From positions 1-25,085 of IMG/VR virus record IMGVR_UViG_3300030061_002391: a stretch of DNA of 25,085 bases; one strand, written 5' to 3'. Of the stretch, positions 3,148 through 22,033 are shown piece after piece. Within the stretch, counting starts at the first letter, position 1, and the number at the start of each line of letters is the position of its first letter. Source of the DNA: a virus. Below the pieces are notes generated by a model. It saw nothing but the letters and a program-made list of their open reading frames with translations, searched no databases and had not been told where the DNA came from. The translations under genes were made by a program, and so were the position numbers.

Positions 3148-6100
3148 CCTGTCCACCAAGCGTCATGATACTGAGTTCGCCCAAGTCTTCAAGGGCAGGA
3201 ATTCCATTATACACCCTAACGGTGTATCCATTAACCGTTCTGTCAGAAATTCTGAGGTTAACGATGCCACCTGGGAAGGCATTAGTACCACTCGCAATAC
3301 CAATGACAGCATAGTCTGTGTCTGCCATGGCATCTGCGAAGTTCACGGTATATGTTCCTGTTGCAGTTTGTAGAATAGAACTTACATTATGTGAGCGATC
3401 ACCAGGAGTGTAGTCACTATTACCAACACCAAGATTGGTGTTTGTGTACCAGGAGGTAGCACGACCTTCATAGAACTGAGTATAGGTAGCAGTCTTGAGA
3501 CCTACAAGGTTCTTAAACTCACCAACTCTGCTGATTTTATGGAAGTCATTGTTGAAGACTTGGATAGAGTTACCCATGCTTCCATATTCAGTTCCAACCC
3601 CAGCACCATAATACAGAAGTTGAGGAGTGTTCTCATCAACAACAATCTCAGTATATGTGCCAGTCTCAGTTACATTATCACCATATGTGACAGGTGTAGT
3701 CGTACCGAAACCAACTGGATCACCAGAGGCGGCATAGTAGAACCTGATTGGATAGTTTGCCTGCTGTGAGGCATTCTCGAAGCGATAGGTTTGACCAACC
3801 TCAAATCTCAGGTACGGAGACTCATAACCCTGAACATTGATAGAACGATCAGATCCAATACCAAAGTATCTGTGATCTGTTGTCTTAGTACCAATGGTTG
3901 TAGGCAGGGGCTTGAATGGTCCCTCATGCTGTGTGTAGAGGTTCTTAGCGGTGTCTGCAGCACCCGTTAAGGTGGAGAAACTAGCACTGTTAGCAAAGAG
4001 TGCATTGTTCGCCTGAGAGGCGAGTCCAGCGAGCGTAGCGAAGGTTGCGATACCAGCAACGATTGCTTCAGATGCAATGCCTGCCAGAGTAGCACGAGGT
4101 GCCTCATTGATCGTTACAGTGACGATACCAGCAGATACTGGACTGACATCAAGACCAGCATTGAAGTTAACTGTACCTGCTGTGCCAACTGCAGAACCAG
4201 AGTCCTGAACAATTACACCAGAACCAGCAGCAACAATGTTAGTCAGTTGAGAACCATCACCGATGAATCTTGGTGCAGTGATATCATTATTAGATGTGAT
4301 TGTAGCATCAACATCCAATTGAGAAGCACTACCAGCAGTTGTTGCACTATCAGCAGTTTGTGCTGAAGTCGCTGTGGTTGCTACCGTAGCCAATCCAGCA
4401 ACAGTTGCAAAGTCTGCTTGAGTAGCCTTAGCAACACTGACACCAGGGGCAAGACTGTTAGCAGTCTCAGCAACACCAACTGTGTCTGCACCTGTGATAG
4501 TTACAATACCAGCAGAGATGGGAGATACAGAGATATTCTGACCAAAGTTGATAGTAGCAGCAGTGCCAATAGGACTGTCATTATCTTTGATGATTACGCC
4601 AGCACCAACACCTGTGACTCCAGTAATACCAGAACCATCACCGAAGAATGCAGAGGCAGTAATGTTACCAGTGGTGTTGACATTGATGTTTGTACCAATA
4701 CCAGAAGGACCAGGATCCTGAGGTACAGAGTGAGCAACGAAAGTCAGATTGGGTTTAGAACCACGAACAATCAAGCTCTGACCCTTAGCAAGAGCGAGGT
4801 TGTCGATCTGAACATCCTGTAAAGGTGCAAGTCTAAGACCGAAAACTAGGTAGTCAGACTCTTGGAACTCAGCAATACCACCAGAGGACAGACCAACTGA
4901 CATACCAACAGTAGAGTCAGAGTTCTGGTTAGTGGCATGAACCGTGACCAGACTATCTTCTTGTGCTGTAAAGAACTCAAGGTTTGTATTGATCTGGAAA
5001 GGAGGATTGAAGCTCAGAGTACCAGATCTTCTTCTACCATGAACCAAAGCAGAGTCAGGACCAAGTTTGTCAAACTTTCTAGTAGCAAAGGCAATGAAAG
5101 AAATGTTAGGATCGAAGGAAGATACGAAGATTTTATCACCAGGTTTGACACCGACCTTCTCAATCAGTCTCGTACCACCTCTATCAAGAGGAATACCAAA
5201 GGTGATAAAGTCACTCTGTTTAAATCCAGGAGTACTAGAGATACCAATAGAGAATGTAGAACGGAAGTCGTTCTGGTTTGCAATACCAATACTAACTTCA
5301 AGAAGGTTGTCTGCCTCATACAAGAGAACAGGTTCAACAACACCATTAGTTAGAGTTGTTTTAATAGATGCAAGTCTACCTACTTCAGCAAGAGCAGCGG
5401 CTGGAGTAGTGAATGTAGTGACAGCAGAGAACGGTGATGTATGAGCAACACCAGATGTACCATTAGCATTAGAAAGATGACGACATCTTACAAAGAAGGT
5501 ATGACTAGAGTTAAGTCCGTCAGAAATTACCTGAGATAAAGAAGTATTATTATTACCAACACTAGTAAATACTATAGTATTAAATCCAATATCCTCGGCA
5601 ACTTCAAATTCAACAGCCTTCAGAGTACCAGAGACTGCCTCACTGTCGATGGCAATAAACGCACTCGATGTAAGAGTAATACCAAATCTCTGCTCCAGAG
5701 TGTCACCATTTAGAGGTGCAATAATTGTCGGTGCCTGAACACCAGGTGCATTACCCAGTGTGGCAAACGAAACAATACCAGCAGAGTAGTTAGAAATATA
5801 CGGAGTAAATGCCGTACCATCAGCATTAGACAGGTGTCTTACGCGAGCATAGTGTGTGGTGAAACCAGCTAACTGAACATCAACTGTTTGCTGTAGGTTA
5901 GTATCATTATTTCCAGTTGTTTCCCATACAATAGAACTAAAGTTAGAAGTTGTAGAGAGTTGGAATTCAACTGCCTTTAGAGTACCTGAAACAGTAGTGC
6001 CACCAATACCATTGAAATTACTAGATCTGATATTGAGTCCTTCAGTATTAACACCAACATCATTATTGATTGGAGAATCAATAGTGGGTTCGTTAATACC

Positions 6101-8056
6101 AGCAGCCTCTGTAAGAATACCAACAGAGGTATCTAAGTATGTGATCTGAACAAGACCATTTCCTTCAGCAGTTCTTTGGTTGAACTGTCCAGTCCACCAA
6201 TTAAAATCATCATTGCCATAGATAACTGACTGGAATTGGTCAAACAATAAATCGCTACCAATTGAGGTGCTACCGCCACCTATAGATCCATAACCATCAC
6301 CTTTACCAACACCAAGACCACAATCATTTAGCAACCACTTTCTTACATCTTGATTGTTAGCAGTAGGATTCCTCTGCATATAAAGAGCAACCAGACCAGT
6401 AACTACAGGAGCAGCAGCAGAGGTTCCGTTAAAGTTATTGTCAAAGTGATTTGGATTATCAAATCTTCTATAGTCAGCATAAGATCCAGAGGGAAGACCA
6501 GCAGCAAGAGTATCTTGTGCAGGTGCATAGATATCAACACCAGGACCACTGTTGGAATAGGATGCCTTTCTTTCTTTGAAGTTTGATTCTACAAAGTCAT
6601 CCAGAGCACCAACATTAATAGTGGGGTGGTAACCTGTGGTGTTATCAAAACCAATACCCTGAGGGTTCATCCAGTCTCTGTGAGATGTTGGAGTTCTTTG
6701 TCCACCAAACTCAGCTCTTGAATCTTGACTATTAAAGTAACGATCCTCAACACCATTTAATCTGTAAGGATCGGTAAAACCAAGACCAACATATTGATTA
6801 TTATTACCAGCAGCAGCAACATAAATGACACCTGCTTCCATCAACTCATCACCAGCCTCATTAGTTGAGTTGGATCTAGATGAAGATGACCAAGATTTAA
6901 AAGCACCTATAACCTGGTTATTAAAACCAATGATCATATCCTCAACACCAGAAGGAGCTCCTGCTGACAGTGTGGATACATCAATGGTGCTAGTGATTCC
7001 AGTGAATTTATAATTTGCAACTCCTGTTGCACTAATAGCAGCTTGGTAACCCCATGAACCATTAACAACTGTAGGATTCTTTACACCTGTCTCAGTGTTT
7101 ACTGGTTTATATTGATGGAAGAACTTAATGAGATCATAAGATGTTTCAATATCCATCCCAACATTATCAGAAATGGCAGGCATTACCCAGACATTTGACT
7201 TAAATGCTAGACCAAAGTTGTTACCAGCAGCAAGAGATGCAGCAGAAGTACCGTGACCACTGCCCAAGTTGTTACTACCTGCTGTGCCAATACCAATAGC
7301 ACCATTTCTATTGTATCCAGGGGGAATAACAACTTCAGGAAGCAGAACAAACTCAGCAGATCTAGCGTTGTTATCTTCCCACCATGCCTCTGCAGCATTA
7401 GTTGCAATACCAGCAGATCCGTCTTCTAAGGTATAAGTAAATCCATTACTGTTAAACCATCCAGGATCAAGGAAGTAAGGGAAGTCAAGAACAATATCTT
7501 TTACTCTACTTGTTCCGTCATCATTTAGAAATTCTGGGTGAGACTGAAGAGTACCAGAGTCATGGATGACAATATCAACATGTCTACCATCATATATGTA
7601 CTCAAAATTACCTTGGATAGGAGCGATTGATCCAGTTACATTAGGATATAGTTCGCCGTTGGTTGCAATACCAGAGATTCTAGGGAGAGCCCAGTTAGTA
7701 CGATTCAGTTCTCCAGCGGTTGCGATACCAGGAGGAGCATTGCTAGTCAGATCCCTATAGATTTTTACATCACTATCAAATCTTTGTGGTTGAACTAATT
7801 GAGGTTCTGGATATGCGTCTTTATTGTCTTTTAATGACAGTTCAATCCATTTAACATGAGGATGACGACCAATCTCCTGGGCCTCATCATCTGTTAACTC
7901 GTATGTACCACGAACTGCACTGATGGAGTGCTCATCTGTACAAGTAACCTGTCTATCAGGAATACCATCCTGATTAGAGTCAATGGTAAGCGCACCATGG
8001 ATTTCATTCCAATGGTCTGCGCTGGTAACCGCAAGGGTATATCTTTTAAGAGTCAT
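3125..8056 (-). CDS. Giant virion fibre protein with subtilisin-like (S8) protease domain
   Basis: This 1643-aa protein carries a complete subtilase domain at residues about 155-580: Asp166 in HDSGTLQSHPEF, His268 in GSGHGTSAA, oxyanion-type Asn418 in VAAAGNN and Ser546 in FNGTSAAAPVVTG. Residues 1-150 may be a propeptide-like or attachment region. Two fibronectin-III-like repeats follow (about 653-766 and 773-884, sharing VSGTLKAVEF and RHLSNA). Then come a duplicated beta module (about 905-1000 and 1030-1110), two GDGS...SAGIVT repeats (1137-1188, 1264-1315) separated by Ala/Thr-rich heptads of trimeric-fibre type, and a C-terminal domain. No signal peptide is seen. A CTAAATA late motif lies 32 bases upstream. 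It could digest host surface protein, mature itself, or be a structural relic; the intact triad argues for activity. Confidence 0.85.
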   Translation of the reverse strand: MTLKRYTLAVTSADHWNEIHGALTIDSNQDGIPDRQVTCTDEHSISAVRGTYELTDDEAQEIGRHPHVKWIELSLKDNKDAYPEPQLVQPQRFDSDVKIYRDLTSNAPPGIATAGELNRTNWALPRISGIATNGELYPNVTGSIAPIQGNFEYIYDGRHVDIVIHDSGTLQSHPEFLNDDGTSRVKDIVLDFPYFLDPGWFNSNGFTYTLEDGSAGIATNAAEAWWEDNNARSAEFVLLPEVVIPPGYNRNGAIGIGTAGSNNLGSGHGTSAASLAAGNNFGLAFKSNVWVMPAISDNVGMDIETSYDLIKFFHQYKPVNTETGVKNPTVVNGSWGYQAAISATGVANYKFTGITSTIDVSTLSAGAPSGVEDMIIGFNNQVIGAFKSWSSSSRSNSTNEAGDELMEAGVIYVAAAGNNNQYVGLGFTDPYRLNGVEDRYFNSQDSRAEFGGQRTPTSHRDWMNPQGIGFDNTTGYHPTINVGALDDFVESNFKERKASYSNSGPGVDIYAPAQDTLAAGLPSGSYADYRRFDNPNHFDNNFNGTSAAAPVVTGLVALYMQRNPTANNQDVRKWLLNDCGLGVGKGDGYGSIGGGSTSIGSDLLFDQFQSVIYGNDDFNWWTGQFNQRTAEGNGLVQITYLDTSVGILTEAAGINEPTIDSPINNDVGVNTEGLNIRSSNFNGIGGTTVSGTLKAVEFQLSTTSNFSSIVWETTGNNDTNLQQTVDVQLAGFTTHYARVRHLSNADGTAFTPYISNYSAGIVSFATLGNAPGVQAPTIIAPLNGDTLEQRFGITLTSSAFIAIDSEAVSGTLKAVEFEVAEDIGFNTIVFTSVGNNNTSLSQVISDGLNSSHTFFVRCRHLSNANGTSGVAHTSPFSAVTTFTTPAAALAEVGRLASIKTTLTNGVVEPVLLYEADNLLEVSIGIANQNDFRSTFSIGISSTPGFKQSDFITFGIPLDRGGTRLIEKVGVKPGDKIFVSSFDPNISFIAFATRKFDKLGPDSALVHGRRRSGTLSFNPPFQINTNLEFFTAQEDSLVTVHATNQNSDSTVGMSVGLSSGGIAEFQESDYLVFGLRLAPLQDVQIDNLALAKGQSLIVRGSKPNLTFVAHSVPQDPGPSGIGTNINVNTTGNITASAFFGDGSGITGVTGVGAGVIIKDNDSPIGTAATINFGQNISVSPISAGIVTITGADTVGVAETANSLAPGVSVAKATQADFATVAGLATVATTATSAQTADSATTAGSASQLDVDATITSNNDITAPRFIGDGSQLTNIVAAGSGVIVQDSGSAVGTAGTVNFNAGLDVSPVSAGIVTVTINEAPRATLAGIASEAIVAGIATFATLAGLASQANNALFANSASFSTLTGAADTAKNLYTQHEGPFKPLPTTIGTKTTDHRYFGIGSDRSINVQGYESPYLRFEVGQTYRFENASQQANYPIRFYYAASGDPVGFGTTTPVTYGDNVTETGTYTEIVVDENTPQLLYYGAGVGTEYGSMGNSIQVFNNDFHKISRVGEFKNLVGLKTATYTQFYEGRATSWYTNTNLGVGNSDYTPGDRSHNVSSILQTATGTYTVNFADAMADTDYAVIGIASGTNAFPGGIVNLRISDRTVNGYTVRVYNGIPALEDLGELSIMTLGGQDGERTYI

Positions 8057-8129: not shown

Positions 8130-8933
8130 ATGAATATTGTTACGGGTGCCAAAGGTTTCATTGGAGATCATTTTGCTTGCACCGTAGATAAACCTCTCGA
8201 AATTGACATTGACAACTGCTTTGAACTATTAAACAAATTTAATCGGTGGGATGATGTGGATATGATTATCCACATGGGTGCTAGATCATGGACCACTGAC
8301 AAGGATATTGATGCTATCTATCGTTACAACATTGACTATAGCATAAAACTATTTGAGAAAGCAATTCAGTATGGTATCCCCGTCAAGTATGCTTCCTCAG
8401 CATCTACCTATGGTAAATGCTTAACTTCTGATGGAATCATCAATCCACTGAACTACTATGCACTATCAAAGGCAACAGTAGATTACTGGGTGCAAGAAAA
8501 CATGCATCGGTTCTCTCACATCCAAGGGTTCAAGTTCTTTAATGTGTATGGTTCGGGTGAGGTACACAAAGGAGAACAAGCAAGCCTTGTGAGTAAATTC
8601 AAATGGCAATCTGCCACAGGAAAGATTCATCCTTTCCAAGGATCTAATAAGGTCTTCAGAGATTATATTTGGGTAGGAGATATTGTTAATGTTGTCCTTA
8701 CCAACTCTGCTGGCAGTGGTATCTTTGATCTTGGCACTGGTGAATCAATAACTATTCAACAAGTTGCAGATATTATTGCACAAAAAACCGAGGCTATGGT
8801 AGAGGAAATTCCCTTCCCACCAAACCTCGTTGGTAAGTATCAATACAATACACAAGCAGACATGAGTTGGTTGTCTGACTCATATAAGTTTAAAACTGTC
8901 TCGGATTATGTCAATCACCACGATGAATTCTAA
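8130..8933 (+). CDS. hldD: ADP-heptose 6-epimerase-like NAD-dependent epimerase
   Basis: A 267-aa short-chain-dehydrogenase-type epimerase. The Rossmann motif is G6-AKGFIG near the N-terminus (VTGAKGFIG), the catalytic pair is Y110-ALS-K114, and a YASSAST segment carries the Ser/Thr. The second half strongly resembles HldD/RfaD: GFKFFNVYG, HKGEQAS, RDYIWVGD, GIFDLGTGES and EIPFPPNLVGKYQYNTQADM. HldD converts ADP-D-glycero-D-manno-heptose to the L-glycero epimer; it is slightly shorter than the roughly 310-aa E. coli enzyme. I use the ATG at 8130 because the motif starts directly after it. It is the only plus-strand gene, and its end overlaps the cupin gene tail to tail by 23 bases. A related nucleotide-sugar epimerase is the alternative. 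Confidence 0.85.
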   Translation: MNIVTGAKGFIGDHFACTVDKPLEIDIDNCFELLNKFNRWDDVDMIIHMGARSWTTDKDIDAIYRYNIDYSIKLFEKAIQYGIPVKYASSASTYGKCLTSDGIINPLNYYALSKATVDYWVQENMHRFSHIQGFKFFNVYGSGEVHKGEQASLVSKFKWQSATGKIHPFQGSNKVFRDYIWVGDIVNVVLTNSAGSGIFDLGTGESITIQQVADIIAQKTEAMVEEIPFPPNLVGKYQYNTQADMSWLSDSYKFKTVSDYVNHHDEF

Positions 8934-9291
8934 TTGAGTCAGAGTCAAAGTGTTGCGTTGAGAACTCAAACAATTCTGAGTCTTGCAACGCAACCATTTG
9001 GTGCTTAAGACCTACAGGAACATGAAAGTTATCTCCAGGTTCTAAAGTTAGAATCTCTGCCTTCCCAATATCTTCATCCCATCCATAATATAATGAGATG
9101 TGGCCGCTCTGTAAGTAGAAGGTCTCATCTTTTATTTTATGGTAGTGCCATGAACATCTCTTTCCCTTCTCAAGGAATAATAGTTTACCACAATACTTCT
9201 CGTTATTTACGATCCACTTCTCGTGCCCCCATCCCTTAGGAACGAAAGTAATACTGGTCGAAGAATTTGTCTGACTGGATTCCTTTGTCAT
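8911..9291 (-). CDS. Cupin-domain sugar-metabolism protein
   Basis: A 126-aa single cupin with metal ligands H49-Y-H51, E56 and H97 (CSWHYHKIKDETFYLQSG, then VPVGLKHQMVAL). The opening VPKGWGHEKWI resembles the cupin part of mannose-6-phosphate isomerase-like and nucleotide-sugar epimerase proteins. It probably isomerises or epimerises a sugar phosphate or nucleotide sugar in this cassette. Its only plausible ATG lies inside the HAD phosphatase gene (56-base overlap). Its end overlaps the convergent epimerase gene by 23 bases. No isomerase activity can be assigned from sequence alone. Confidence 0.8.
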   Translation of the reverse strand: MTKESSQTNSSTSITFVPKGWGHEKWIVNNEKYCGKLLFLEKGKRCSWHYHKIKDETFYLQSGHISLYYGWDEDIGKAEILTLEPGDNFHVPVGLKHQMVALQDSELFEFSTQHFDSDSIRIHRGD

Positions 9292-9577
9292 CGATGTAGT
9301 AATCTGCTGCAGGTTTTCCTAGGAAGAGAGCGTCGTACTTGCATCCCCAGGATCTTAATTGATTGATAGTAAAGACATAGTATTCTTTACGGGCTGCCTC
9401 ACGATCATTCTTAAATGTCCCCATACCTCTCGCAGTATGATAGATGATCTCGTGCCCCTCATCATGTAGTTTATTTATGATCTTGATTCTGTCGTGACGA
9501 GGGATTGCATTGGTGTATCTCCCATCTCCTTCACCAGGATAGCATATGGTGCCATCGATGTCTACATTGTATCTCAT
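9236..9577 (-). CDS. HAD-superfamily phosphatase, possibly sugar-phosphate specific
   Basis: A compact 113-aa HAD protein with all four motifs: D6-I-D8-G-T (nucleophile and acid/base Asp), T48 in YHTARG, K88 in FLGKP and D96/D97 in YYIDDKG. There is no cap domain, which suits small sugar phosphate or tail-to-tail multimer enzymes such as capsule biosynthesis phosphatases. In a heptose pathway the missing step after the kinase is removal of the 7-phosphate from heptose-1,7-bisphosphate (GmhB); this gene could do it, but it is not close to E. coli GmhB in sequence. Its ATG overlaps the preceding 2OG-like gene by 4 bases. Confidence 0.8.
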   Translation of the reverse strand: MRYNVDIDGTICYPGEGDGRYTNAIPRHDRIKIINKLHDEGHEIIYHTARGMGTFKNDREAARKEYYVFTINQLRSWGCKYDALFLGKPAADYYIDDKGIQSDKFFDQYYFRS

Positions 9578-10146
9578 TCAGAAAAAGTGCAGGTAACATT
9601 AAAAGAAATAGTAATTCTATTATCTTGTGCAGGTTCAGTACAATGGTACATATCAGAGGGAAATATTAATATGTTACCTTCACTAATGTGTTTGGTATCA
9701 TAAGCAAAGTTCTGATATGCAGTATTAGATGTTCCTGCACCAAAGAATATTGTATTATTCTCTTCTCCTACATGGAGAAGATATACTCCAGAGAAGGTAG
9801 AGTCGGCATGAACATGAGGTCCATGCGATTCACCAACCTTATAGTTATTATACCAGATATGCTGTAGGTTTATGTCCTCCGTGTCAGAAATGTCATAAGG
9901 TAAAGACTCCATGCAGGATGCTATTGGATCAAATACAATTTCTGAGAAAAAATCAAGACTTTCAAGGTAATCCCCAAACTCACCAGAATCATCGTTGAAA
10001 TTATCATAGCAAGACTCAACTGGTCTTTCGGTTATCCAGGGAAATAACTTCTCTTTAATTTTATCATGACGCCTTAGTTGTTTGTTATAAAGAAAGGGTC
10101 CTGGGAATAAAACTAAATTAGATTTTGAGTATTCTATCGACATCAT
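9574..10146 (-). CDS. 2OG-Fe(II) oxygenase-like protein inside the sugar cassette
   Basis: A 190-aa protein of the same group as those at 2045 and 2587. Motifs are H111-V-H113-A-D115 (GPHVHADSTFSGVYLL), distal H168 in MYHCTEP and R177 in NRITISFNV. Here an HxD (H113/D115) is available as well as HxH, unlike its paralogues. It lies between the heptose kinase (29-base overlap at the first of two Met codons) and the HAD phosphatase (4-base overlap), so it is firmly embedded in the sugar operon. It might hydroxylate a sugar or the protein acceptor; both are inference. Confidence 0.78.
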   Translation of the reverse strand: MMSIEYSKSNLVLFPGPFLYNKQLRRHDKIKEKLFPWITERPVESCYDNFNDDSGEFGDYLESLDFFSEIVFDPIASCMESLPYDISDTEDINLQHIWYNNYKVGESHGPHVHADSTFSGVYLLHVGEENNTIFFGAGTSNTAYQNFAYDTKHISEGNILIFPSDMYHCTEPAQDNRITISFNVTCTFSE

Positions 10147-10912
10147 CCATTCTCAAAGTGTAAGTGCCAGGGTTTTGTACTGCTATAGCAGCAGATTTAT
10201 TTGCAAATGAGATAGCCTCTTCCATCACTGGTAATTGAATGTAATAAAATACTAGAGCGGCAAGAAAAGTATCTCCAGCACCAGTGACATCAAATGTCCT
10301 AACAAGATCGTTGCAAGGAAACTTTTTTTTATTCCACACTGCACCATCGGCACCGAGAGTAACAATTAAATTTTCCCCATTAGGAATATTATCAGTATCT
10401 AATAGTTCAAATTCTTTTTTATTAATTTTGTAGATGACATTATTAAACTCAGTGGGAAGTTTAGTTTTCTTAGTATCTACAAATACTCTGATGTTAGGAT
10501 ACTTTCTAGCAATTTCACCAATAATCTTAGCTTCAGGTAGATATCCTTTATCATAGTCTGAAATGACAACGGCATCATATGCTCCATGAAGCAATGCCAT
10601 CTGTAACTGAGATGGATGCAAAGGTTTTACATCGGGTTCATTATCTACGCGGACAATTTGCTGGTTACTTTTACTGTCAATGAATCTAGTCTTCTTTGCT
10701 TCCTCTTTATTGCATAGAAAAGTAACAGTAATGCCAAGAGATTCTAAGTTCTCCTTGACATTACCCGCCATACCAGGAGCAGTATCCTTACCATCTTCAA
10801 TGAGGACAGGAACAGGTGCTTCTGGACTTAATCTATCAACATTACCATAAACCCATTCATCGGTACAACTATCCCCGATCAATAATACATTGTATTGTCT
10901 TGCTAGTTGCAT
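10118..10912 (-). CDS. rfaE1: PfkB-family heptose-7-phosphate kinase (HldE kinase domain)
   Basis: A 264-aa ribokinase-fold protein. The N-terminal VLLIGDSCTDEWVYG and LSPEAPVPVL follow the HldE kinase domain pattern; SDYDKGYL, TLGADG and the catalytic DVTGAGDTF (Asp214) are intact. HldE kinase phosphorylates heptose-7-phosphate at O-1. In most bacteria it is fused in front of the nucleotidyltransferase; here it is separate and downstream of it. The start at 10912 lies 44 bases inside the preceding gene, and no later start would keep the essential first strand, so the overlap is probably real. Confidence 0.85.
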   Translation of the reverse strand: MQLARQYNVLLIGDSCTDEWVYGNVDRLSPEAPVPVLIEDGKDTAPGMAGNVKENLESLGITVTFLCNKEEAKKTRFIDSKSNQQIVRVDNEPDVKPLHPSQLQMALLHGAYDAVVISDYDKGYLPEAKIIGEIARKYPNIRVFVDTKKTKLPTEFNNVIYKINKKEFELLDTDNIPNGENLIVTLGADGAVWNKKKFPCNDLVRTFDVTGAGDTFLAALVFYYIQLPVMEEAISFANKSAAIAVQNPGTYTLRMDDVDRILKI

Positions 10913-11273
10913 AATCTTCTAACCTAGGGAAAAAATGTACCTCGGCAGCGTACATGGATCCGATAACTGTTTTATTTTCCCAGTCAGATCCTACTACCAT
11001 TATATCAGGTGATGTAACCCTGATACACTTCTCTAGTTCTTCATCAGAACCAAATAGAACTACATGATCTACTGTCTTGAGACTCTGTAGCATGTAAGCC
11101 CTATCTTCAGCGTTATTTATTGGGCGGGTGGGACCTTTCTTCTCACGCACCCTGTCATCACTATCAATACCTACAACAACCACATCACCCTGAGACTTTG
11201 CATACTCTAGGAGTTCTAAGTGTCCACGGTGTAGGATGTCAAAGGTTCCATTAACAAATACTTTCTTAGTCAT
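10869..11273 (-). CDS. rfaE2: Heptose-1-phosphate nucleotidyltransferase-like protein (HldE C-terminal domain)
   Basis: A 134-aa cytidylyltransferase-fold enzyme. It has the HxGH motif at H15/H18 (VNGTFDILHRGHLELL), KKGPTRPINN in the position of the HldE RPVN segment, DIMVVGSDW, and the C-terminal ATSKTIQCII that corresponds to the STTNII signature. The length equals an isolated HldE adenylyltransferase domain. It would make ADP-heptose from heptose-1-phosphate, although a glycerol-3-phosphate-type cytidylyltransferase cannot be excluded. It overlaps the carbamoyltransferase by 8 bases and the kinase by 44. Confidence 0.85.
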   Translation of the reverse strand: MTKKVFVNGTFDILHRGHLELLEYAKSQGDVVVVGIDSDDRVREKKGPTRPINNAEDRAYMLQSLKTVDHVVLFGSDEELEKCIRVTSPDIMVVGSDWENKTVIGSMYAAEVHFFPRLEDYATSKTIQCIIDRG

Positions 11274-13065
11274 TGAGAATTGTAATCAGTTTACCGAACT
11301 CAGGAAGATACAGGTATTCAATATCAGATTTTGAAAGAGTCCTACATGCATCATCCAAAGTCTCAACCAGTGGTTCTCCACCAAGATTGAAAGAGGTGTT
11401 GAATAGAATGGGACAACCTGTAGCATCATAGAATGCTTTGATCAAATCATAGTAATTTTTATTCTGCTCCTGGGTAACAGTCTGAATACGACATGTACCG
11501 TCTACATGAATGATAGCAGGAATTTTTTCTTCAATACCTGGTTGACATTTTACAGCATACATCATGAAAGGAGTGTCTTCCATTCCACGGAGATCAAACC
11601 ATTCTTCTGCATGTTCTGCAAGAATAGATCCAGCAAAAGGACGGAAGTATTCACGATGTTTTACTGTATTTACAAAGTCTTTACCCTCAGGATCACGAGG
11701 ATCATAAAGGATAGAACGATTGCCAAGAGCACGAGGACCAGCCTCGGATTTTCCTTGGTAAAGTGATACGATATTCTCCTTAGAAATCAAATCAATCACA
11801 TCTTGATTCTGGGCATCACTTACAACACCGCCATACTTATCGGCAGTATCAATAAGTTCTTCAATCGTATAGTTATAGTCGGGTCCATGATAAAGATCAG
11901 TGATCCTAGGAGGAAGAGTTACTTCCTTTTTCATACCAACCATACTTTGATAATAAACATATAAAGCAGCACCGATAGCAGTCCCGCCATCATTACTGAC
12001 AGGTTCTACAAAAAGATTGATGCCATCTTCTTTCAGTTTATCAAGATACCAATAGTTTGCTACACAATTAAGACCATATCCACCAGAAAGAACTACATTT
12101 TTCTTACCAGTAATCTCAACTGCTTTATAGATTAGTTTGAGAACTGCTTCTTGAGTTTCGGTTTGTACCGCATAAGCAAAATCTCTACGATTCTTAAGTT
12201 TAGTTAGATCGTCAGAATCATGATCATTTAAGAAAGGATATTCTTGAGTATTGACATGCCCAGCATTGGGATAGGTAGGAACGATAACATTTCTATCTAC
12301 TGTTCCAGTCTTCTTAAATAAAGTAGGAACCTCATCATTAGGTTCTCCATATGGGAACAGACCCATAGTTTTACCAGCCTCGATAGCATGCCAACCACAA
12401 TATTGTGTCGCAGCTTCGTATGCCTTTACAATACCTGCGGTTTCATCCAAGACATATGAGAAGGTTCCCTCCTCGCCAGGATAAGCTTCTCCTGCTGCCA
12501 TGGCAGTCACATAGTTTGTAGTACAGGGACCACGAGTTCCTAAGTGCTTGTACTTGGTATTGATTGTATTTGGGAATTCACAATCAAAAATAGTCTCAGT
12601 TTCCCAAACAGTTTCTTCCTGACCCATGACCTCAAACTGAATGAAGGTTCCAGCACCGTCAACTACAACTGCTGTAGCATCTTCAAATCCAGAACGATAA
12701 AATGCACAAGCAGCATGGAGTTTATGGTGAACATTACCAACATCAACTACCTGAGGATGCTTCGCGTCTGGGTTTGGACTATCGTCTCTAATCAGTCCAA
12801 GTTTTCTAGCTAGACCAACATAGATATGTTCGTAAGAATACTCAAGACGACTGCAATCTCTATCCATTAGTTGAGTGTGACCAACAACCAGGAAATCAAG
12901 TTTGTCTGTGTATTTTTTAATCTCCAGCATCGATGCAAGAGGTGCGCCATCATACTTACGACGAGACAACCTCTCTTCTTCAATAGCAAAAACTAATTCA
13001 CCATCTTTGAGAAGACATACTCCACCGTTATGTCCGCGAGTAATACCTGCAATCCACTGTGTCAT
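11266..13065 (-). CDS. Carbamoyltransferase (NodU/CmcH family)
   Basis: A 599-aa two-domain enzyme. The N-terminal Kae1-like domain begins WIAGITRGHNGGVCLLKDG, with EEERLSRRK, the metal-binding VHHKLHAACAFY and VVDGAG. The C-terminal domain carries KSEAGPRALGNRS, HREYFRPFAGS and FNTSFNLGGEPLV. The length is typical for the family. Family members transfer carbamoyl from carbamoyl phosphate, through carbamoyl-AMP, to a sugar hydroxyl. Here the acceptor is probably a sugar built or attached by the neighbouring genes. It overlaps the glycosyltransferase by 4 bases (ATGA). Confidence 0.95.
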   Translation of the reverse strand: MTQWIAGITRGHNGGVCLLKDGELVFAIEEERLSRRKYDGAPLASMLEIKKYTDKLDFLVVGHTQLMDRDCSRLEYSYEHIYVGLARKLGLIRDDSPNPDAKHPQVVDVGNVHHKLHAACAFYRSGFEDATAVVVDGAGTFIQFEVMGQEETVWETETIFDCEFPNTINTKYKHLGTRGPCTTNYVTAMAAGEAYPGEEGTFSYVLDETAGIVKAYEAATQYCGWHAIEAGKTMGLFPYGEPNDEVPTLFKKTGTVDRNVIVPTYPNAGHVNTQEYPFLNDHDSDDLTKLKNRRDFAYAVQTETQEAVLKLIYKAVEITGKKNVVLSGGYGLNCVANYWYLDKLKEDGINLFVEPVSNDGGTAIGAALYVYYQSMVGMKKEVTLPPRITDLYHGPDYNYTIEELIDTADKYGGVVSDAQNQDVIDLISKENIVSLYQGKSEAGPRALGNRSILYDPRDPEGKDFVNTVKHREYFRPFAGSILAEHAEEWFDLRGMEDTPFMMYAVKCQPGIEEKIPAIIHVDGTCRIQTVTQEQNKNYYDLIKAFYDATGCPILFNTSFNLGGEPLVETLDDACRTLSKSDIEYLYLPEFGKLITILND

Positions 13066-14048
13066 TTGCCAAATCCTTTAGTACAAGTTTCCTTAGTTTC
13101 TTTTTTCTTTGCCTTTACAGGTGCTCCAAGTCTATCCTTACATGACTTGATTACAGATTGAATATCATCTTCAGTCATGGTCATACACTCATCATTTTGC
13201 ATGTCCTGATAGTCCTCCATCGTCAATCTAATCGGAGAAAATGATCTACGATCTTCACCAAGATCAATTATATCAAATTGATCATCATCTGGATAGGAAA
13301 TATTGACAGGGTAAGTAGATCCAATAACAGCAGTTACACTTGTTTGAGTTGCTGCTGCGATGTGTTGACCAACAGAATCACATCCTAAGAAATGATCTGC
13401 TCTATTAATAATAGATGCCCAGATACGAATGTCCTCAATGTGAGGAAGAATGAATGGAAGTTTACCTTCACCATCTTCAGTCTGGAATGGGAACTCAGAC
13501 ATTACAATGACACAATAATCTTTCTTAAGTTCATTAATAATCTTGCTGATATCTCCAAGATTAAAACTTCTTGAAGTTGGGTCAAAAATATATCCACCCT
13601 CGTCTTGTACACCTCTACCAAAAGGTTGTACAACAATAACTTTATCTCTGCCCGTTACTTTGATAGCCTCATCAACTAACTGAAGACCTTGAATGCCTTC
13701 ATGCTTTGCTAGTTTGATGGATGGTCTGGTAAGTTCTCTTGGTTCATCTACACCATTGATTTCCATATCAAATGCTTGAGCAATACTACACTTCTGGTTA
13801 TAGTAATGCCAGCGACGATATGGTTCTGGAGTAATACAATCTCTCTCTTTGATCTTATCCTCAAAGAGACCTTTATGCCAGATGTCGTAAGCGTATTTGT
13901 GTAATACTGGGTGGGACTTATAGAAATTCATACCACCTTCACACACAATGATAAAATCATCATGGGTTTCTGCGTATTTTTCAAAAGCAGGGATGGAGGT
14001 GATAACTCTACCAGCTCCTCCATTGATGAAGAATGCTTTAGATCTCAT
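13062..14048 (-). CDS. GT9-like glycosyltransferase (heptosyltransferase type)
   Basis: A 328-aa GT-B-fold protein. The N-terminal AFFINGGAGRVITSIPAF matches the start of ADP-heptose transferases, VIVVQPFGRG is the donor-domain beta strand, and DHFLGCDSVGQHIAAATQ followed by AVIGSTYPVN is the GT9 donor-binding signature (the D-S-G-x-x-H motif is D-S-V-G-x-H here). With hldD- and hldE-like genes alongside, an ADP-heptose donor is the natural inference. The acceptor (virion protein or host lipopolysaccharide) is not visible. A basic C-terminal tail (KAKKKETKET) follows the domain. It is followed by the carbamoyltransferase with an ATGA overlap. Confidence 0.8.
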   Translation of the reverse strand: MRSKAFFINGGAGRVITSIPAFEKYAETHDDFIIVCEGGMNFYKSHPVLHKYAYDIWHKGLFEDKIKERDCITPEPYRRWHYYNQKCSIAQAFDMEINGVDEPRELTRPSIKLAKHEGIQGLQLVDEAIKVTGRDKVIVVQPFGRGVQDEGGYIFDPTSRSFNLGDISKIINELKKDYCVIVMSEFPFQTEDGEGKLPFILPHIEDIRIWASIINRADHFLGCDSVGQHIAAATQTSVTAVIGSTYPVNISYPDDDQFDIIDLGEDRRSFSPIRLTMEDYQDMQNDECMTMTEDDIQSVIKSCKDRLGAPVKAKKKETKETCTKGFGK

Positions 14049-14074: not shown

Positions 14075-14812
14075 TTATAAAAAGAAAACCTGATTCACCC
14101 TATCATGACTGGTGAACATCCCATGATCAATATTTTGCGAGTGCAAGATATCGGATTCATAAAAGATACATCTATTATACACCATCTCAGCCTCATATTC
14201 AACATTCCACTCCCTGTCACCATATAACCACTCCCTAATATAAGGATAAACTTGGTCTTGTCTGGTCACTTCCTCATCAAATCCCTCAGGTTTGTCAATA
14301 TAGTCCATCACATTAAATGGAAGAGACATTTCTCCCTTATATGAGTACAAATTTGTTCCTCCAGCACATTCATCTGGAGTATTCAAATATATTACAACAC
14401 CAAATTGAGTGAAGTCTGTTGATATATCACTCGTATAATAGTCCTGATGAGGAACACTACACCAGGCATCTTTGATTACACTCTCATAATTTAGAACATT
14501 ACACATAAATCCAACGGCATCCCATTGGCACTCATACATTCTTTCATGAGTATTCTTGCTCCATATGGAGTCATTCAAGCAATACTTATCAAAAAATGGT
14601 TTGAGATTTTCTTTTATTTCTGATCTCTCTTGAAATATTCTAGATCCAGGAAGACCGTTTATCAATGCAGGATCTCTCACCGCATCAAGTTTTAGTGCCA
14701 GGTCTCTTACTTCGTCTGGATTTTTATAAAAATTATCTGCAATGACAATTCTTTTAGCTTGTGGTCCTACAGTTTTAATCGATACATCGATGTTTTCACT
14801 CAGTTCAAACAT
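14075..14812 (-). CDS. DUF6445-like 2OG-Fe(II) oxygenase-fold protein
   Basis: A 245-aa protein with a canonical-looking facial triad H122-Q-D124 (SVPHQDYYTSD) and H224 (DILHSQNID), followed by R238 (DRVNQVFFL). The N-terminal IVIADNFYKNPDEVRDLAL is the pattern of DUF6445 proteins. A GAGGA ribosome-binding site precedes the ATG by 4 bases. It begins directly after the terminator of the Cys-rich gene and is the first gene of the sugar cassette, 26 bases before the glycosyltransferase. It probably hydroxylates a protein or small molecule; substrate unknown. Confidence 0.78.
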   Translation of the reverse strand: MFELSENIDVSIKTVGPQAKRIVIADNFYKNPDEVRDLALKLDAVRDPALINGLPGSRIFQERSEIKENLKPFFDKYCLNDSIWSKNTHERMYECQWDAVGFMCNVLNYESVIKDAWCSVPHQDYYTSDISTDFTQFGVVIYLNTPDECAGGTNLYSYKGEMSLPFNVMDYIDKPEGFDEEVTRQDQVYPYIREWLYGDREWNVEYEAEMVYNRCIFYESDILHSQNIDHGMFTSHDRVNQVFFL

Positions 14813-14884: not shown

Positions 14885-15763
14885 TTAGGACCAGGTTGTG
14901 ACCACAACTAGGCCACCTCCACCCCAGTCACCCCAACACTGACCGCCTTGGGTAGATCCAGAGTGACCACCTCCTCCAGGGAACAGTGAAGGACTTGAGC
15001 AACAACCTCTAGCGTTACCATATGAACAACGGTGTGTACCGAAGTTTCTTCCCGAACGCCATGGACCTGGAGGTCCCGATGCAACAGACCAAGAGAGTGA
15101 ATGGCAGTTCACATGCTTCAGTTCACCACCACTTAATCCGCAGATATAGAATTCGTTCTCTGGATTCATAGTGTCTGGCTTAGATTGTGCATCAGGCCAA
15201 GCAGCAGAACAACCGTTCCAGCAGTTAGTTCTTTGTGCCTGCTTCAGACAGGTATAGCAGGAATTGGTACACAAAGTATTAGCATAGGTTCCACCTTGCA
15301 TACAGAATGTTCCAAGACCTCCACCCAATACAAAAGAGGGACACCCATAAAATCCACATCCTGTTCTACCGTGGCAACATCCACAGCAAGAACATCTACT
15401 TGTAGAACCAGCACAAATAGTATATTGAGTGCTATTAGCAGTGAAGTGACCGCAGTTTGCATACTGCATTTTAGTGGCATAACCACCACCACCGCCTCCC
15501 ATGCCAGGTCCACCGCCACAACAGCGAGCACCACCACCTGAACCACCGCCAGATACAATCTCAAACTGAATGGTAGTTACACCCTTTGGAACAGTCCAAA
15601 GATAGCAACAACCACCATTACAGGGTTCATTGTGGCAACAGTTGAAGAAGAAGTTTCTGCAGACAATACCAGTGGAGACACCTGTTACTTTGCCAGGACC
15701 GACTGAGGTATCAAGGAACGCATCGTTTCCATCGATTTTCTTAAAAGTCTGGTAGTCAGCCAT
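14885..15763 (-). CDS. Cysteine- and glycine-rich virion adhesin-like protein, copy 2
   Basis: A 292-aa protein with 29 cysteines (about 10%) and several glycine runs. The N-terminus (ADYQTFKKID) and WTVPKGVTTIQFEIVSGGG are followed by CC pairs at residues about 41-50, 79-80 and 131-139, and a Trp/Gly-rich C-terminus ending LVVVTTWS. By eye it differs from the copy at 16540-17418 at about 25 positions, and all cysteines are conserved. Gly-rich segments recall T4-like fibre-tip adhesins, but I cannot assign a family. Cysteine may form disulfides in the extracellular particle or bind metal. The TATAAAT just before the ATG is too close to be a promoter. Confidence 0.75.
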   Translation of the reverse strand: MADYQTFKKIDGNDAFLDTSVGPGKVTGVSTGIVCRNFFFNCCHNEPCNGGCCYLWTVPKGVTTIQFEIVSGGGSGGGARCCGGGPGMGGGGGGYATKMQYANCGHFTANSTQYTICAGSTSRCSCCGCCHGRTGCGFYGCPSFVLGGGLGTFCMQGGTYANTLCTNSCYTCLKQAQRTNCWNGCSAAWPDAQSKPDTMNPENEFYICGLSGGELKHVNCHSLSWSVASGPPGPWRSGRNFGTHRCSYGNARGCCSSPSLFPGGGGHSGSTQGGQCWGDWGGGGLVVVTTWS

Positions 15764-15768
15764 TTATA

Positions 15769-16509
15769 TCACTCCGCTGGATCTGTATGAGGTTTTGATG
15801 CAAGACCAGTTTCAGGAGTATCACCTGTAAACTTGTCAACATCACCAGGTTCTCTAGGCCATACAATTAAATATGTCTTATCACCAACTGATGACCAAGT
15901 TGAGGGAAGATCTCTAAGTTTTTGACGATATGTTCTCCATGCAGAGGCAAATCCTTCAGGAGCATCAGCAGGAACCATACTATCAGATGACTCAAGCAAT
16001 CTGTTTCTAATATCTCTCACATTTTCCCAACTAAATGCGGCAGATTCACCATCAGGAAGTAAAATCTCTGTATGTTGACCAGAAAATTTACCAGTCTTCC
16101 AAGTGCTATTTGCCATATCATATTCAAACGAACACATATCAAACACTTCATTAAAGTGAAGATAGTCAGGAATGATTGGATTAGGTTCTGAGTTAGGACC
16201 AGCAGGAGTTTCAATCAGATCTGGACCCTCAATGCCACCCCACATAGCAATTGCATTCATTGGATGAGTATCTGCATTTAACTCAACTACTCTAGCAGCT
16301 GCAGGAGGATCTCTTTTTTCTGGTTCATCTGAGGGGAAGCTATGCACTACCTCCCAATTGGGAGCAGCATCAGTTCCATTATTTTCATACCAGAAAGTAA
16401 TTTTATCTGGTCCAACATAGGTGGCAATACCACTTCGGTTTGTGTCCTGATTATCACCGTAGAATTCGGTAGGAACAGGGTAAATAACTGTCTTAGTAAT
16501 CTGCGCCAT
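15769..16509 (-). CDS. Phage tail assembly chaperone-like protein
   Basis: A 246-aa protein whose region at about residues 185-215 (WRTYRQKLRDLPSTW) matches the W-x-x-YRQ-x-LRDLP pattern of phage tail-assembly chaperones, which are often encoded next to tail fibres. The N-terminal part (about 1-130) is beta-rich and unlike the short chaperones, so the motif sits at the end of a longer protein that may itself be structural. It lies between the two Cys-rich paralogues. A GATAAATA motif 24 bases upstream overlaps the stop of the preceding gene. Confidence 0.65.
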   Translation of the reverse strand: MAQITKTVIYPVPTEFYGDNQDTNRSGIATYVGPDKITFWYENNGTDAAPNWEVVHSFPSDEPEKRDPPAAARVVELNADTHPMNAIAMWGGIEGPDLIETPAGPNSEPNPIIPDYLHFNEVFDMCSFEYDMANSTWKTGKFSGQHTEILLPDGESAAFSWENVRDIRNRLLESSDSMVPADAPEGFASAWRTYRQKLRDLPSTWSSVGDKTYLIVWPREPGDVDKFTGDTPETGLASKPHTDPAE

Positions 16510-16532: not shown

Positions 16533-16541
16533 GTATTTATC
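16533..16541 (-). promoter_or_regulatory. Late-promoter-like motif before the chaperone-like gene
   Basis: GATAAATAC on the minus strand, overlapping the TGA stop of the upstream Cys-rich gene and 24 bases before the ATG at 16509. The same TGATAAATACTA sequence recurs at 22024-22034. Confidence 0.6.
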
Positions 16542-17418
16542 AGGACCAAGTTGTGACGACGACTAGGCCACCACCGCCCCAGTCACCCCAGCATTGTCCA
16601 CCTTGAGTAGATCCAGAGTGACCACCGCCACCAGGAAAGAGAGAAGGTGAAGAACAGCAACCTCTAGCGTTACCATATGAACAACGGTGTGTACCGAAGT
16701 TTCTTTGAGTTTGCCAAGGACCAGGAGGAGTAGAAGAAACTGACCATGCACCAGAGTGACAGTCTACATGCTTCAGTTCACCACCACTTAATCCACAAAT
16801 ATAAAATTCGTTCTCTGGATTCATATTGTCTGGTTTGGACTGCGAATCAGGCCAAGCAGCAGAACATGCGTTGAAGCAGTTGCTTCTTTGTGCCTGCTTC
16901 AGACAGGTATAACAGGAATTGGTACATCTCTGACCACCATAGGATCCACCTTGCATACAGAATGTTCCGAGTCCACCACCCAGAACAAACGATGGGCAAC
17001 CGTAGAATCCACAACCAGTTCTACCATGACAACATCCACAGCAAGTACATCTACTGGTAGATCCAGCGCAGATAGTGTATTGTGTAGAGTTTGCAGTAAA
17101 GTGACCACAGTTAGCATACTGCATCTTGGTAGCATAACCGCCGCCGCCACCAGCCATACCAGGACCACCACCACAGCAACGGGCACTACCACCAGTTCCA
17201 CCACCAGATACAATCTCAAATTGAATCGTAGTTACGCCCTTTGGAACGGTCCAAAGATAACAGCAGCCACCATTACAGGGTTCGTTGTGGCAGCAGTTGA
17301 AGAAAAAGTTTCGGCAAACGATACCAGTGGATACACCAGTTACTTTACCAGGCCCTACGCTCTGATCAAGAACTGCATCGTTCGCATCAATTTTCTTAAA
17401 AGTCTGATAATCAGCCAT
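16540..17418 (-). CDS. Cysteine- and glycine-rich virion adhesin-like protein, copy 1
   Basis: A 292-aa protein, paralogue of the gene at 14885-15763. It has 29 cysteines, including C-C pairs and a CTCCGCC cluster near residue 133. Differences from the other copy are concentrated in three places: residues about 74-92 (glycine tract), 161-170 (GGSYGGQRC against GGTYANTLC) and about 222-245 (the SGAWSV...QTQR stretch). Those stretches may be exposed and specificity-determining. No signal peptide or membrane segment is present, as expected for a virion protein. A CATAAATA late motif lies upstream, and a terminator of the 1219-aa fibre precedes it. Confidence 0.75.
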   Translation of the reverse strand: MADYQTFKKIDANDAVLDQSVGPGKVTGVSTGIVCRNFFFNCCHNEPCNGGCCYLWTVPKGVTTIQFEIVSGGGTGGSARCCGGGPGMAGGGGGYATKMQYANCGHFTANSTQYTICAGSTSRCTCCGCCHGRTGCGFYGCPSFVLGGGLGTFCMQGGSYGGQRCTNSCYTCLKQAQRSNCFNACSAAWPDSQSKPDNMNPENEFYICGLSGGELKHVDCHSGAWSVSSTPPGPWQTQRNFGTHRCSYGNARGCCSSPSLFPGGGGHSGSTQGGQCWGDWGGGGLVVVTTWS

Positions 17419-17504: not shown

Positions 17505-20500
17505 TCAGATAGTGATGATTCTCCAACCTTGTGATCCATCGTAGTAAACGAGTTCAAAGGCGGCACCTTCTGTTGAGACTGTCAAATCAGCAAGAGCACC
17601 CATGATTGGTTGACCATTTCTACCAATCGTGAGAGCGTTGGAATCAAATGAACTAGTGACATCGAAGATTCTGACGCTATCACCTAGAGCAGGAGATGCG
17701 GGCAGGGTAACTGTGAATGATCCACCGCTAGTGTTTGCCCAGACCTGTTGTCTATTAACAGCGGTTACTCCAGAAGTAGCAGTAACATTAGCATAGGCAC
17801 CGAGAGGTAACCATGCAGCACCGTTATAGAATTCAAATCCATCAGCATCGGTATCGTAGCGAAGACCACCTTCAATAAGATCAATACCAACAGGTCTAGT
17901 TGCCTGAGTACCACGAGGTGGAACTAAGATACCAGAGGTGGTATCCATCTTACCGCGAGTGAGGAAGCCACGAACTGCTTTCTCAGTAGGACATGCAGTG
18001 TTAGAGTCACCAGATAGGAACTCATCAGAAGAGAATTCGTTAACTGCTTCACCAATCTGACCACCAATAGCACCCAGTCTCAGTTCCGCAAGACCAGACA
18101 GGTTGAATGCGGAAGCGTCCAAGGTAGCAGCACCAGTCAACTGGTTAACTGAGAAGAACTCACCAACTCTGAAGTTACCGCCTTGGTCAGTAGATACGAA
18201 GAAGATTTTACCAGTGTTAACTACATTGGTTTCGTTACCCTGAGAGGCTGTGTTCTCATCAACAGTAGGATAGTTGGTTTGTGCAGTGTTACCTGTACCA
18301 ATCAAGAGGAAGTCATGACCCGTAAGACGAACCTTGGAGAACTTAGATCTCATCAAGAACTCTTGATCGTCGAAGGAAGCAGGAGCAGATGCTTTAACTG
18401 GTGCAATGTTGATCGTTGCACGACCAGATGCAAAGTCATATTCAGAAACTGTTCTGATAATGTAACTAATTGAATCGGAGAATCCTAATCCAACTGTACT
18501 AAATCCAATCGCGTCACCAACAAGTGGTGTTGTGGTTAGTCCAACTACTTCAAATAGTCCATCTTTCTGTCCACCAACTGCGTTAGATGCAGATGCAATC
18601 TTGACATATCCTGTAGCACCAGCACCAACGCTATCAAACTCAATGAATTCACCAGGTGTGAAGACAGTAGTACCAACACCAACAGCACCGTTAGCACCAT
18701 CAGGGTTACCAAATCCAGTAGCGTACTTAAAGTACAGTTGATCACCAGAGATTTGGTTGTTTGTTACAGTACCACGAGCTCCTGATACAGTTCCTCTCAT
18801 GGTAGCGCCGACTGAAATAGTACCAGCGGAAGTACCTACTTGAGTTGCCATCTTGTCACCAAAGAGGCGACCAGCGCGAGCAACTTCTAATGTAGAGAAT
18901 CCAACAGCCAATGCACCGTAGTCGCCATAGGAATTGTTACCTGAGAGAGATCTAATTTCAGATCCATCATCAGAAACATAACCGAAAGCACAGTAGTAAG
19001 TGAAGGAGGAAACAATCTCAGCAAGAGCATCGTCTTCCAACCAGAAACCTACACCACCAGAGTGAATGTTGGTAAAGGCGTCGAAGACCATCGACTTACC
19101 ACCTCTACCCTCAGGTTTACCCTCGTGTACACCACCCTCAATAAAGATGCCGATAGCACCACCATGTCCAGTACCATCAATACATACATCAGAGAAAGCA
19201 GTACAGTCTTTGATGTAAGGAGAACGCTCAAGAATCGGAGTCTCTGGATTAAGTCTGAAGTAGATACCGCAAGTTGTAGTACCTACGCCAACTTTATTTT
19301 GCCACTTATCAGTATTGAAAGGATCATTAGTGTCATAATTAAATCCTTGGAGACCCTTCATCGTGATCGCCTGAACCGTAGTAGAGTCAGAGACGAAGAA
19401 CATCGTCTGACGACTATTAGGAACAAGACCGTCAGTAGAAACACCTGTGGCAGGCTCAACTGTCGTACCTCTCAGAACATCACCAGCAATGGAGAAGTTC
19501 TTAGGAAGCGTGATAGGAAGTTGTTCTTTGAATACACCAGCAGACAACTTCAGAATGATAGGAGATACATCAGTAACTTCACCGCCACTTACATAGGTGT
19601 GAGCAATCGTGGAGATACCGACATTAGTTACGAAACTGTTAGAGTCAACTACGGAGTCAACTTTAAAGAAGAATCCTTGTGTACCATCTGGGAAGATAGT
19701 AGTTGTGATACCAGAGTGTGCAGCAGCACAAGTAAATCCAATACCTTGAAGTTTAACTTGTCCCTGAGGGAACAGACCATGAGAAGCAGCAGTAACTGTT
19801 GCAACACCACTAGTCTCATCATAAACAAAGTTAGTAATATCTCTTCTAATCTGACCAGCAGTAGAAGCATAAGCAATATTGGCCCAAGCATTATCTGGGG
19901 TAAGACCTGTATTGTCATTGTTACCCTGCTGAGCGTCAACATAGTACACCTTGGTGCGAAGACCAGGATACTGCCATTCCACCTCATCGCTAGAAGAGAC
20001 TCTTAGATATGTACCTTGCGTACCAATACCCTGTCTTGTAGGACCAGTGCCATCTCTAGTAAGCAAGTCACCTTTAGTTGTCAGCAGTGCTGCGCTATCA
20101 CCGATAGCGAACGCTGCCCACATGGTAACAGCAGTACCAGGTTGAACATTAATGTTGGAAGATGCAATCGAGATGTAGGCCGAAGAGGAGAACTCAGCGA
20201 CATCACCAATCTCATATACACCACTATTACTCCAAGTACTTCTCCAATTGAATCCTCTGTTCAGCAGGGACCAACCATTAACACCAGTATCGAATGTGGT
20301 AATTGCATTACCAACAGGTCTCTTATCTTGGAGAATTTTAACTTGGTCGGCAATATAAGAGTTACCACCAAGGGTTACGATCTGACCACGGGCATAGATA
20401 TCACCAGGATCATAGGTAGAACCTGCACCAGTACCAATACCACCAACAAGAACTGACCACTGGTCTTCGTTCTCGTTAGGTTGAGCACCTCTTGGGTTAG

Positions 20501-22024: not shown

Positions 22025-22033
22025 GTATTTATC
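22025..22033 (-). promoter_or_regulatory. Late-promoter-like motif before the 156-aa gene
   Basis: GATAAATAC on the minus strand, overlapping the stop of the preceding oxygenase gene and 28 bases before the ATG at 21997. Arrangement and sequence are nearly the same as at 16533-16541. Confidence 0.65.

Follow-up and report, generated by a model that had tools for sequence, protein, structure and literature searches.

We examined a 25,085-base stretch of viral DNA (virus record IMGVR_UViG_3300030061_002391; hereafter the window), focusing on a gene cluster at positions 8130–14048 that encodes homologues of ADP-heptose enzymes together with a glycosyltransferase-like protein and a carbamoyltransferase. 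Every open reading frame (ORF) that a preliminary description of this DNA had reported for the cluster was present at its coordinates. The plus strand carries the gene of an HldD-like ADP-heptose 6-epimerase of 267 amino acids (aa) (8130–8933; TIGR02197, phrog_540 and motif positions). All the remaining genes lie on the minus strand: a cupin, here a putative metal-dependent sedoheptulose-7-phosphate isomerase (8911–9291, 126 aa; Cupin_2, E 1.1e-7), a short HAD phosphatase that is a candidate for the GmhB step (9236–9577, 113 aa; TIGR01689, E 2.7e-10), a 2OG-Fe(II) oxygenase (9574–10146, 190 aa; PF13759, E 3.7e-13), a short HldE-type heptose-7-phosphate kinase (10118–10912, 264 aa; TIGR02198, E 3.6e-40), an HldE-type heptose-1-phosphate adenylyltransferase (10869–11273, 134 aa; TIGR02199, E 2.2e-34; phrog_7878), a NodU/CmcH/TobZ-type O-carbamoyltransferase (11266–13065, 599 aa; PF16861, E 2.2e-60; PF02543, E 3.7e-26) and a GT9-fold glycosyltransferase-like protein, P0008 (13062–14048, 328 aa; AlphaFold model, Foldseek and VIA-align). 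A DUF6445/2OG-oxygenase-like gene (14075–14812, 245 aa; PF20043, E 1.6e-13) adjoins the cassette on the same strand. The preliminary description had omitted this gene and the oxygenase gene at 9574–10146. The latter is a variable insert, found only in a subset of related viral loci, and DUF6445-type genes often adjoin the GT9-like gene in such loci.

The epimerase, the split HldE, the HAD protein, the cupin and the NodU/CmcH carbamoyltransferase, already described as one cluster, were all confirmed by profile searches, and the GT9-like protein was recognised by its fold alone. The best match of the epimerase was the HldD model TIGR02197 (E 2.8e-52, 177.9 bits), with galE at only 35 bits; its YxxxK motif corresponds to Y110/K114 and the candidate for the second catalytic lysine is K147, within HKGEQAS. 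TIGR02198 was the best match of the kinase, whose GAGD motif with Asp214 is retained across the phage homologues, and TIGR02199 that of the adenylyltransferase, which has HxGH at residues 15–18. At the sequence level the matches to HldD and HldE are unambiguous against other sugar families. A placing of the epimerase and kinase in unrelated families, which the preliminary description had named as a refutation of its ADP-heptose route, was thus not what the profiles gave, and the route is supported.

The HAD protein (P0003; motif residues D6xD8, T48, K88 and D96/D97) matched the EcbF-BcbF phosphatase profile TIGR01689 and gave no match to the GmhB HAD-IIIA profiles TIGR00213 and NF006506. It had been described as standing in for GmhB; position and co-occurrence agree with that role, the profile does not, and we treat the protein as a GmhB candidate by position and co-occurrence only. 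Public cyanophage annotation labels this HAD gene 'phosphoheptose isomerase'. It gives the cupin, whose P-SSM2 orthologue is PSSM2_312, the name 'cysteine dioxygenase' or 'nucleotidyltransferase'. The orthologous HADs of P-SSM2, S-CAM1 and S-SSM7 matched the capsule phosphatase model TIGR01689, and gmhA models gave no match. Since the search of these complete genomes also found no SIS_2 gene, the annotated 'phosphoheptose isomerase' is not an isomerase: the HAD motifs, the TIGR01689 matches and the lack of a SIS domain rule out that it is GmhA, and the label sits on the wrong gene in the public cyanophage genomes.

This gene set, with its order almost unchanged, was found again in more than 100 viral loci and in named cyanophages, so that it is not a product of chance. 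In a set of 136 related phage loci, even where the surroundings differ, the genes that stay together are those of the adenylyltransferase, kinase, HAD, cupin and SDR epimerase. The classical ADP-heptose route comprises GmhA, the HldE kinase, GmhB, the HldE adenylyltransferase and HldD, and each of the five co-travelling genes would account for one of these steps if the cupin takes the role of GmhA. The SIS_2/gmhA search, in which positive controls were recovered, gave no match in the window or in 86 distinct cupin-bearing records of viruses or phages, of which five are complete genomes. The earlier statement that all steps but GmhA have a candidate therefore held as to GmhA itself, and it had left unassigned the cupin that is the likely isomerase.

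A profile built from 33 cupins found D-lyxose/D-mannose isomerases in the PDB (7NZO, 8e-4; 2Y0O, 1e-3) and an L-ribose isomerase (5AVP, 1.4e-3), and the top Foldseek matches of the cupin model were D-lyxose isomerases with 25–26% identity; sugar isomerases were also its closest full-length sequence matches. In the D-lyxose isomerase TsLI, the sugar- and metal-binding residues are K62, H75, H77, K86, E88, H143, E156 and D163 (PMC8378251). Their counterparts in the phage cupin, by alignment, are K36, H49, H51, K54, E56, H97, E109 and D116, so that the phage protein has the D-lyxose isomerase-type pattern of a 3-His/1-Glu metal site with two lysines, one glutamate and one further acid. In 39 homologues from phages and bacteria, seven of these eight residues did not vary and the eighth, position 116, was Asp or Glu; catalytic residues are invariant among cupins of 61–79% identity. 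The interconversions of fructose and mannose and of sedoheptulose and manno-heptose are the same C1–C2 isomerisation. Cysteine dioxygenase, the PHROG name of the cupin, has a 3-His iron site without a glutamate. That identity was rejected, given the 3-His/1-Glu site with E56 invariant in the 39 homologues, and given that the cysteine dioxygenase-type structure 4qm9 is 11% identical to the cupin, as against 26–27% for lyxose isomerases. We regard the cupin as the leading candidate for the sedoheptulose-7-phosphate isomerase that seemed to be absent, an assignment that is new here.

The genomic context of the cupin points the same way. In three Patescibacteria genomes (L166, L167 and L245/G106) a full HldE kinase and, after it, this cupin are encoded by a single ORF. 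A GmhB gene adjoins the fusion in all three. Near the fusion there are also, in L166 and L167, an HldE adenylyltransferase and an HldD that passes the curated cut-off with 401 and 427 bits, and, in L245, a heptosyltransferase II-like gene. The SIS_2 (GmhA) search of these three genomes, which are assemblies of unstated completeness, found none. Weak cupin matches (40–75 bits) in many other Patescibacteria were left out of the counts because their scores are much lower than those of the fusions and they probably represent stand-alone cupins resembling phosphomannose isomerase. Where viral loci carry the kinase together with the adenylyltransferase, the cupin without GmhA was found 99 times and GmhA without the cupin 12 times, the two sets coming from different queries and some loci overlapping on one contig; the two genes were never seen together in such a locus. 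Neither gene was present in 14 of the loci recovered with the cupin and kinase queries, at least several of which lie on contigs that end near the kinase. One viral locus (L261) carries a short phage-type kinase, a HAD and an adenylyltransferase followed by a true GmhA (TIGR00441, 178 bits) and no cupin. Finally, of the kinase-bearing genomes in the phylum of the cellular genome G043, GmhA was present in 153 of the 179 that have no strong cupin and in none of the 3 that have one (Fisher p 0.004). Among the papers searched, none names GmhA, cupin and heptose together, and the two that name both cupin and sedoheptulose-7-phosphate isomerase are wide-ranging ones in which either term occurs a single time.

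From the families, the cupin site residues, the fusions and the mutual exclusion of cupin and GmhA, we infer, with a probability of roughly two in three, that the cassette provides every step of a route to ADP-heptose that does not depend on GmhA, and then tailors the sugar. The cupin would convert sedoheptulose 7-phosphate to D-glycero-D-manno-heptose 7-phosphate, the short kinase would add a phosphate at C1, the HAD phosphatase would remove the 7-phosphate, the adenylyltransferase would yield ADP-D,D-heptose and the HldD-like epimerase would convert this to ADP-L,D-heptose. The GT9-like protein would then move the heptose onto an acceptor, and the NodU-type enzyme would carbamoylate it, the order of carbamoylation being our assumption.

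Several observations weigh against this interpretation. The epimerase and the two HldE-type proteins (P0001, P0005 and P0006) all score under the NCBI equivalog cut-offs (for the epimerase, 177.9 bits against 274.6 for TIGR02197, in a protein about 50 aa shorter than the model), which we attribute to the shortening of the phage proteins. Other SDR genes occur in several phage clusters, and the final heptose may therefore vary. In the modelled structures the cupin fold alone does not discriminate, as the VIA-align Z of 14.8 for lyxose isomerase is tied with many other cupins (Z 14–16), and a quercetinase matches the generic cupin metal motif equally well. D-lyxose isomerases work on free sugars, with TsLI activity on mannose below 2% (PMC8378251), so that specificity of the cupin for a phospho-heptose is a prediction that goes beyond its relatives. 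In five cellular genomes (G044, G046, G047, G053 and G055) a strong cupin occurs together with a GmhA-like gene, and two viral contigs carry GmhA and a cupin more distantly related within the family (L275, 15296–15685; L305, 15525–15896), and have no kinase. In one locus (L148) the cupin follows a GDP-mannose dehydratase gene and in some Binataceae it has similar-looking neighbours (judged by eye), which would fit a phosphomannose isomerase; in other places it stands alone.

The L148 context, together with the close relationship to cupin-type phosphomannose isomerases, makes a mannose role the main rival. The cupin would then be a phosphomannose isomerase, another manno-type isomerase or a tailoring enzyme, and heptose 7-phosphate would come from a host GmhA. 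The Thermococcus cupin-type phosphomannose isomerases 7zvm and 7zvy are indeed structural and sequence neighbours of the phage cupin, and the cupin domain of the L166 fusion also matches GMP_PMI TIGR01479 (5.9e-6). Nevertheless, we recognised no mannose-pathway enzyme in the phage cassettes, the partner of the cupin in the three genomes without a GmhA match is a heptose kinase and not a mannose enzyme, and L261 has GmhA in the place of the cupin beside the same kinase type. As for the host as a source, strong GmhA-like matches were present in about 28 of 151 Cyanobiaceae genomes (counted by eye), which would allow it in some cases, but most sampled picocyanobacterial genomes had no strong match. 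We consider this explanation unlikely.

An HldE-adenylyltransferase match was found in 31 of the 151 Cyanobiaceae genomes, mostly weak and in one case on a phage-looking contig; with so few matches to either gene, it seems rare for a host to supply every step. Heptose is absent from the lipopolysaccharide (LPS) of Synechococcus WH8102 and CC9311 (PMC4515613), as the preliminary description had stated for studied marine Synechococcus. It is on the whole probable, in our judgement, that evolution has solved sedoheptulose-7-phosphate isomerisation a second time with the cupin family, which is unrelated to GmhA, is spread by marine phages, is fused to the kinase in some Patescibacteria and is used by some bacterial lineages without GmhA, and that this family gives phages a self-contained ADP-heptose route in hosts whose studied LPS has no heptose.

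Some further loci deserve mention. L148 looked at first sight like HldE-HldD-cupin, but what lies between HldE and the cupin is a GDP-mannose dehydratase gene, and the locus was accordingly counted as HldE plus cupin. A 130-kb contig filed under a Prochlorococcus single-cell genome (G042 contig C3; L243/L244) carries the adenylyltransferase, HAD, cupin and kinase; it resembles a T4-like cyanophage (UvsX-like gene; judged by eye), so its cupin was not counted as host-encoded. One deltaproteobacterial genome (L150; G044 contig C7) has two HldE-type kinases, one adjoining the cupin and the other about 2 kb from a GmhA-like gene. In L275 and L305 a weak nucleotidyltransferase match also lies near the distant cupin, perhaps as part of another sugar pathway.

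The GT9-like transferase of the preliminary description was borne out by its predicted fold. Sequence-level GT9 profile matches of P0008 were weak (5e-4 to 4e-3) and a sequence search of the PDB found no GT9 relatives. Its AlphaFold model (pLDDT 86.6) was assigned to GT9 by both Foldseek and VIA-align, the latter with Z 23.1 to the Veillonella GT9 protein 3tov over 281 residues, 20.6 to WaaF and about 18–19 to both TibC and WaaC, after which come other GT-B folds at 12. In the model the GT9 fold is clear over the whole protein. P0008 has GGAGR14V where GT9 enzymes have Gly-Asp, and Arg14 is invariant in 39 phage homologues. The catalytic aspartate of this N-terminal motif in WaaC is Asp13; with the two residues equated through the motif, P0008 seems to lack the usual GT9 catalytic aspartate. 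A nucleotide-binding-type motif, GCDSVGQH, is found at position 222.

Both domains of the carbamoyltransferase scored above the curated cut-offs (PF02543, 92.8 against 24 bits; PF16861, 203.5 against 27 bits), and its PDB relatives are the novobiocin carbamoyltransferase, GdmN and TobZ. A sugar-type O-carbamoyltransferase is thus well supported by sequence as the product of 11266–13065. Phage carbamoyltransferases that act on DNA bases have been reported, and with 2OG-Fe(II) genes within the block one could imagine that the carbamoyltransferase and the oxygenases modify phage DNA (5-carbamoyloxymethyl-cytosine type), the sugar genes serving DNA glycosylation. We regard this as very improbable, given that the nearest solved carbamoyltransferase relatives act on sugars or macrolides, that the fold of the GT-like protein is that of heptosyltransferases acting on LPS or protein, and that the block sits among fibre genes, where no base-modifying enzyme was recognised.

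It is also conceivable, though in our view doubtful, that activated heptose is made and the carbamoyl group goes onto another molecule, in which case a carbamoylated heptose would be the wrong product. The number of carbamoyltransferase genes varies from one to four per phage locus, and five cassettes (L035, L045, L060, L071 and L082) contain the heptose core but neither GT9 nor carbamoyltransferase genes, so that the two modules are separable. On the other side, the carbamoyltransferase, adenylyltransferase and kinase genes are adjacent or nearly adjacent in most cyanophage-type loci, and 7-O-carbamoyl-heptose occurs in the LPS core of P. aeruginosa (PMC7168646), which makes carbamoylated heptose a plausible phage product.

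The heptose would probably serve to decorate virion fibres or the host surface, and the fibre and adhesin genes that adjoin the cassette suggest virion decoration; the acceptor, too, is a matter of prediction. On the minus strand, 3125–8056 encodes a 1643-aa fibre-like protein with a subtilase domain (PF00082, E 1.1e-20, residues 261–579) that keeps the His and Ser motifs (GHGTSAAS and GTSAAAP), that is, a protease domain within a tail-fibre-type protein. Beyond the cassette, two very similar 292-aa Gly/Cys-rich proteins (14885–15763 and 16540–17418, minus strand; Gly_rich_2, weak) are probable adhesin paralogues, with a Phage_tail_APC-domain protein between them (15769–16509). They are followed by a 1219-aa fibre-like protein (17505–21164, minus strand) with a CBM5/12 carbohydrate-binding module (PF02839, 4.7e-16). 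Near the fibre genes, the 25 kb contain at least three and probably five 2OG-Fe(II) oxygenase-like genes (2045–2599, 2587–3159, 9574–10146, 22032–22529 and 22504–23097, all on the minus strand). One possibility is that these oxygenases hydroxylate fibre proteins and thereby create glycan attachment sites. That the cassette is instead non-functional filler retained to suit headful packaging, an idea that Sullivan et al. 2010 discussed (PMC3037559), is hardly credible: the ORFs are intact in dozens of divergent loci, and motifs are retained in the kinase, adenylyltransferase and HAD as well as in the cupin with its invariant site.

If the cupin is the isomerase, the textbook pathway gains a second, overlooked first enzyme, in a route whose product matters both as an inner-core sugar of Gram-negative LPS and as a ligand of innate immunity. 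It would also open an old puzzle to direct test, namely why abundant ocean phages carry 'LPS' genes while the studied Synechococcus LPS is free of heptose.

Compared with the classical ADP-heptose route, the phage cassette has homologues of both HldE domains and of HldD; it differs in lacking GmhA, for which we propose the cupin, in having a short EcbF/BcbF-like HAD instead of GmhB as phosphatase, and in its split HldE with a kinase about 50 aa shorter. The phage cupin shares the fold, the metal site and the sugar-binding Lys/Glu/acid residues of the cupin D-lyxose/D-mannose isomerases TsLI (7NZO) and B. subtilis 2Y0O, but is about 25% identical to them, is shorter, has no loop insertions and has heptulose 7-phosphate as predicted substrate. 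P0008 shares with the heptosyltransferases WaaC, WaaF and TibC the two-domain GT-B fold and the C-terminal nucleotide-binding-type motif, at 11–12% identity and with Gly-Arg in place of the N-terminal Gly-Asp. The natural carbamoylated heptose of P. aeruginosa belongs to a cellular LPS core. The closest counterparts are the 'LPS gene' clusters (T4-GC 302–308) of cyanomyoviruses, which also lie beside tail-fibre or neck genes: P-SSM2, S-SSM7, S-CAM1, S-CAM3 and Sf-FS3 have almost the same gene content and gene order, and the cassette of the window is 66–70% identical to such clusters in DNA where aligned, their complement varying with extra carbamoyltransferases, a halogenase and oxygenases. 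Sullivan et al. 2010 listed several of the cassette genes as co-occurring 'LPS genes' and left their functioning undecided (PMC3037559). The cassette therefore belongs to an already known kind of phage cluster, in which a GmhA-independent first step would be new.

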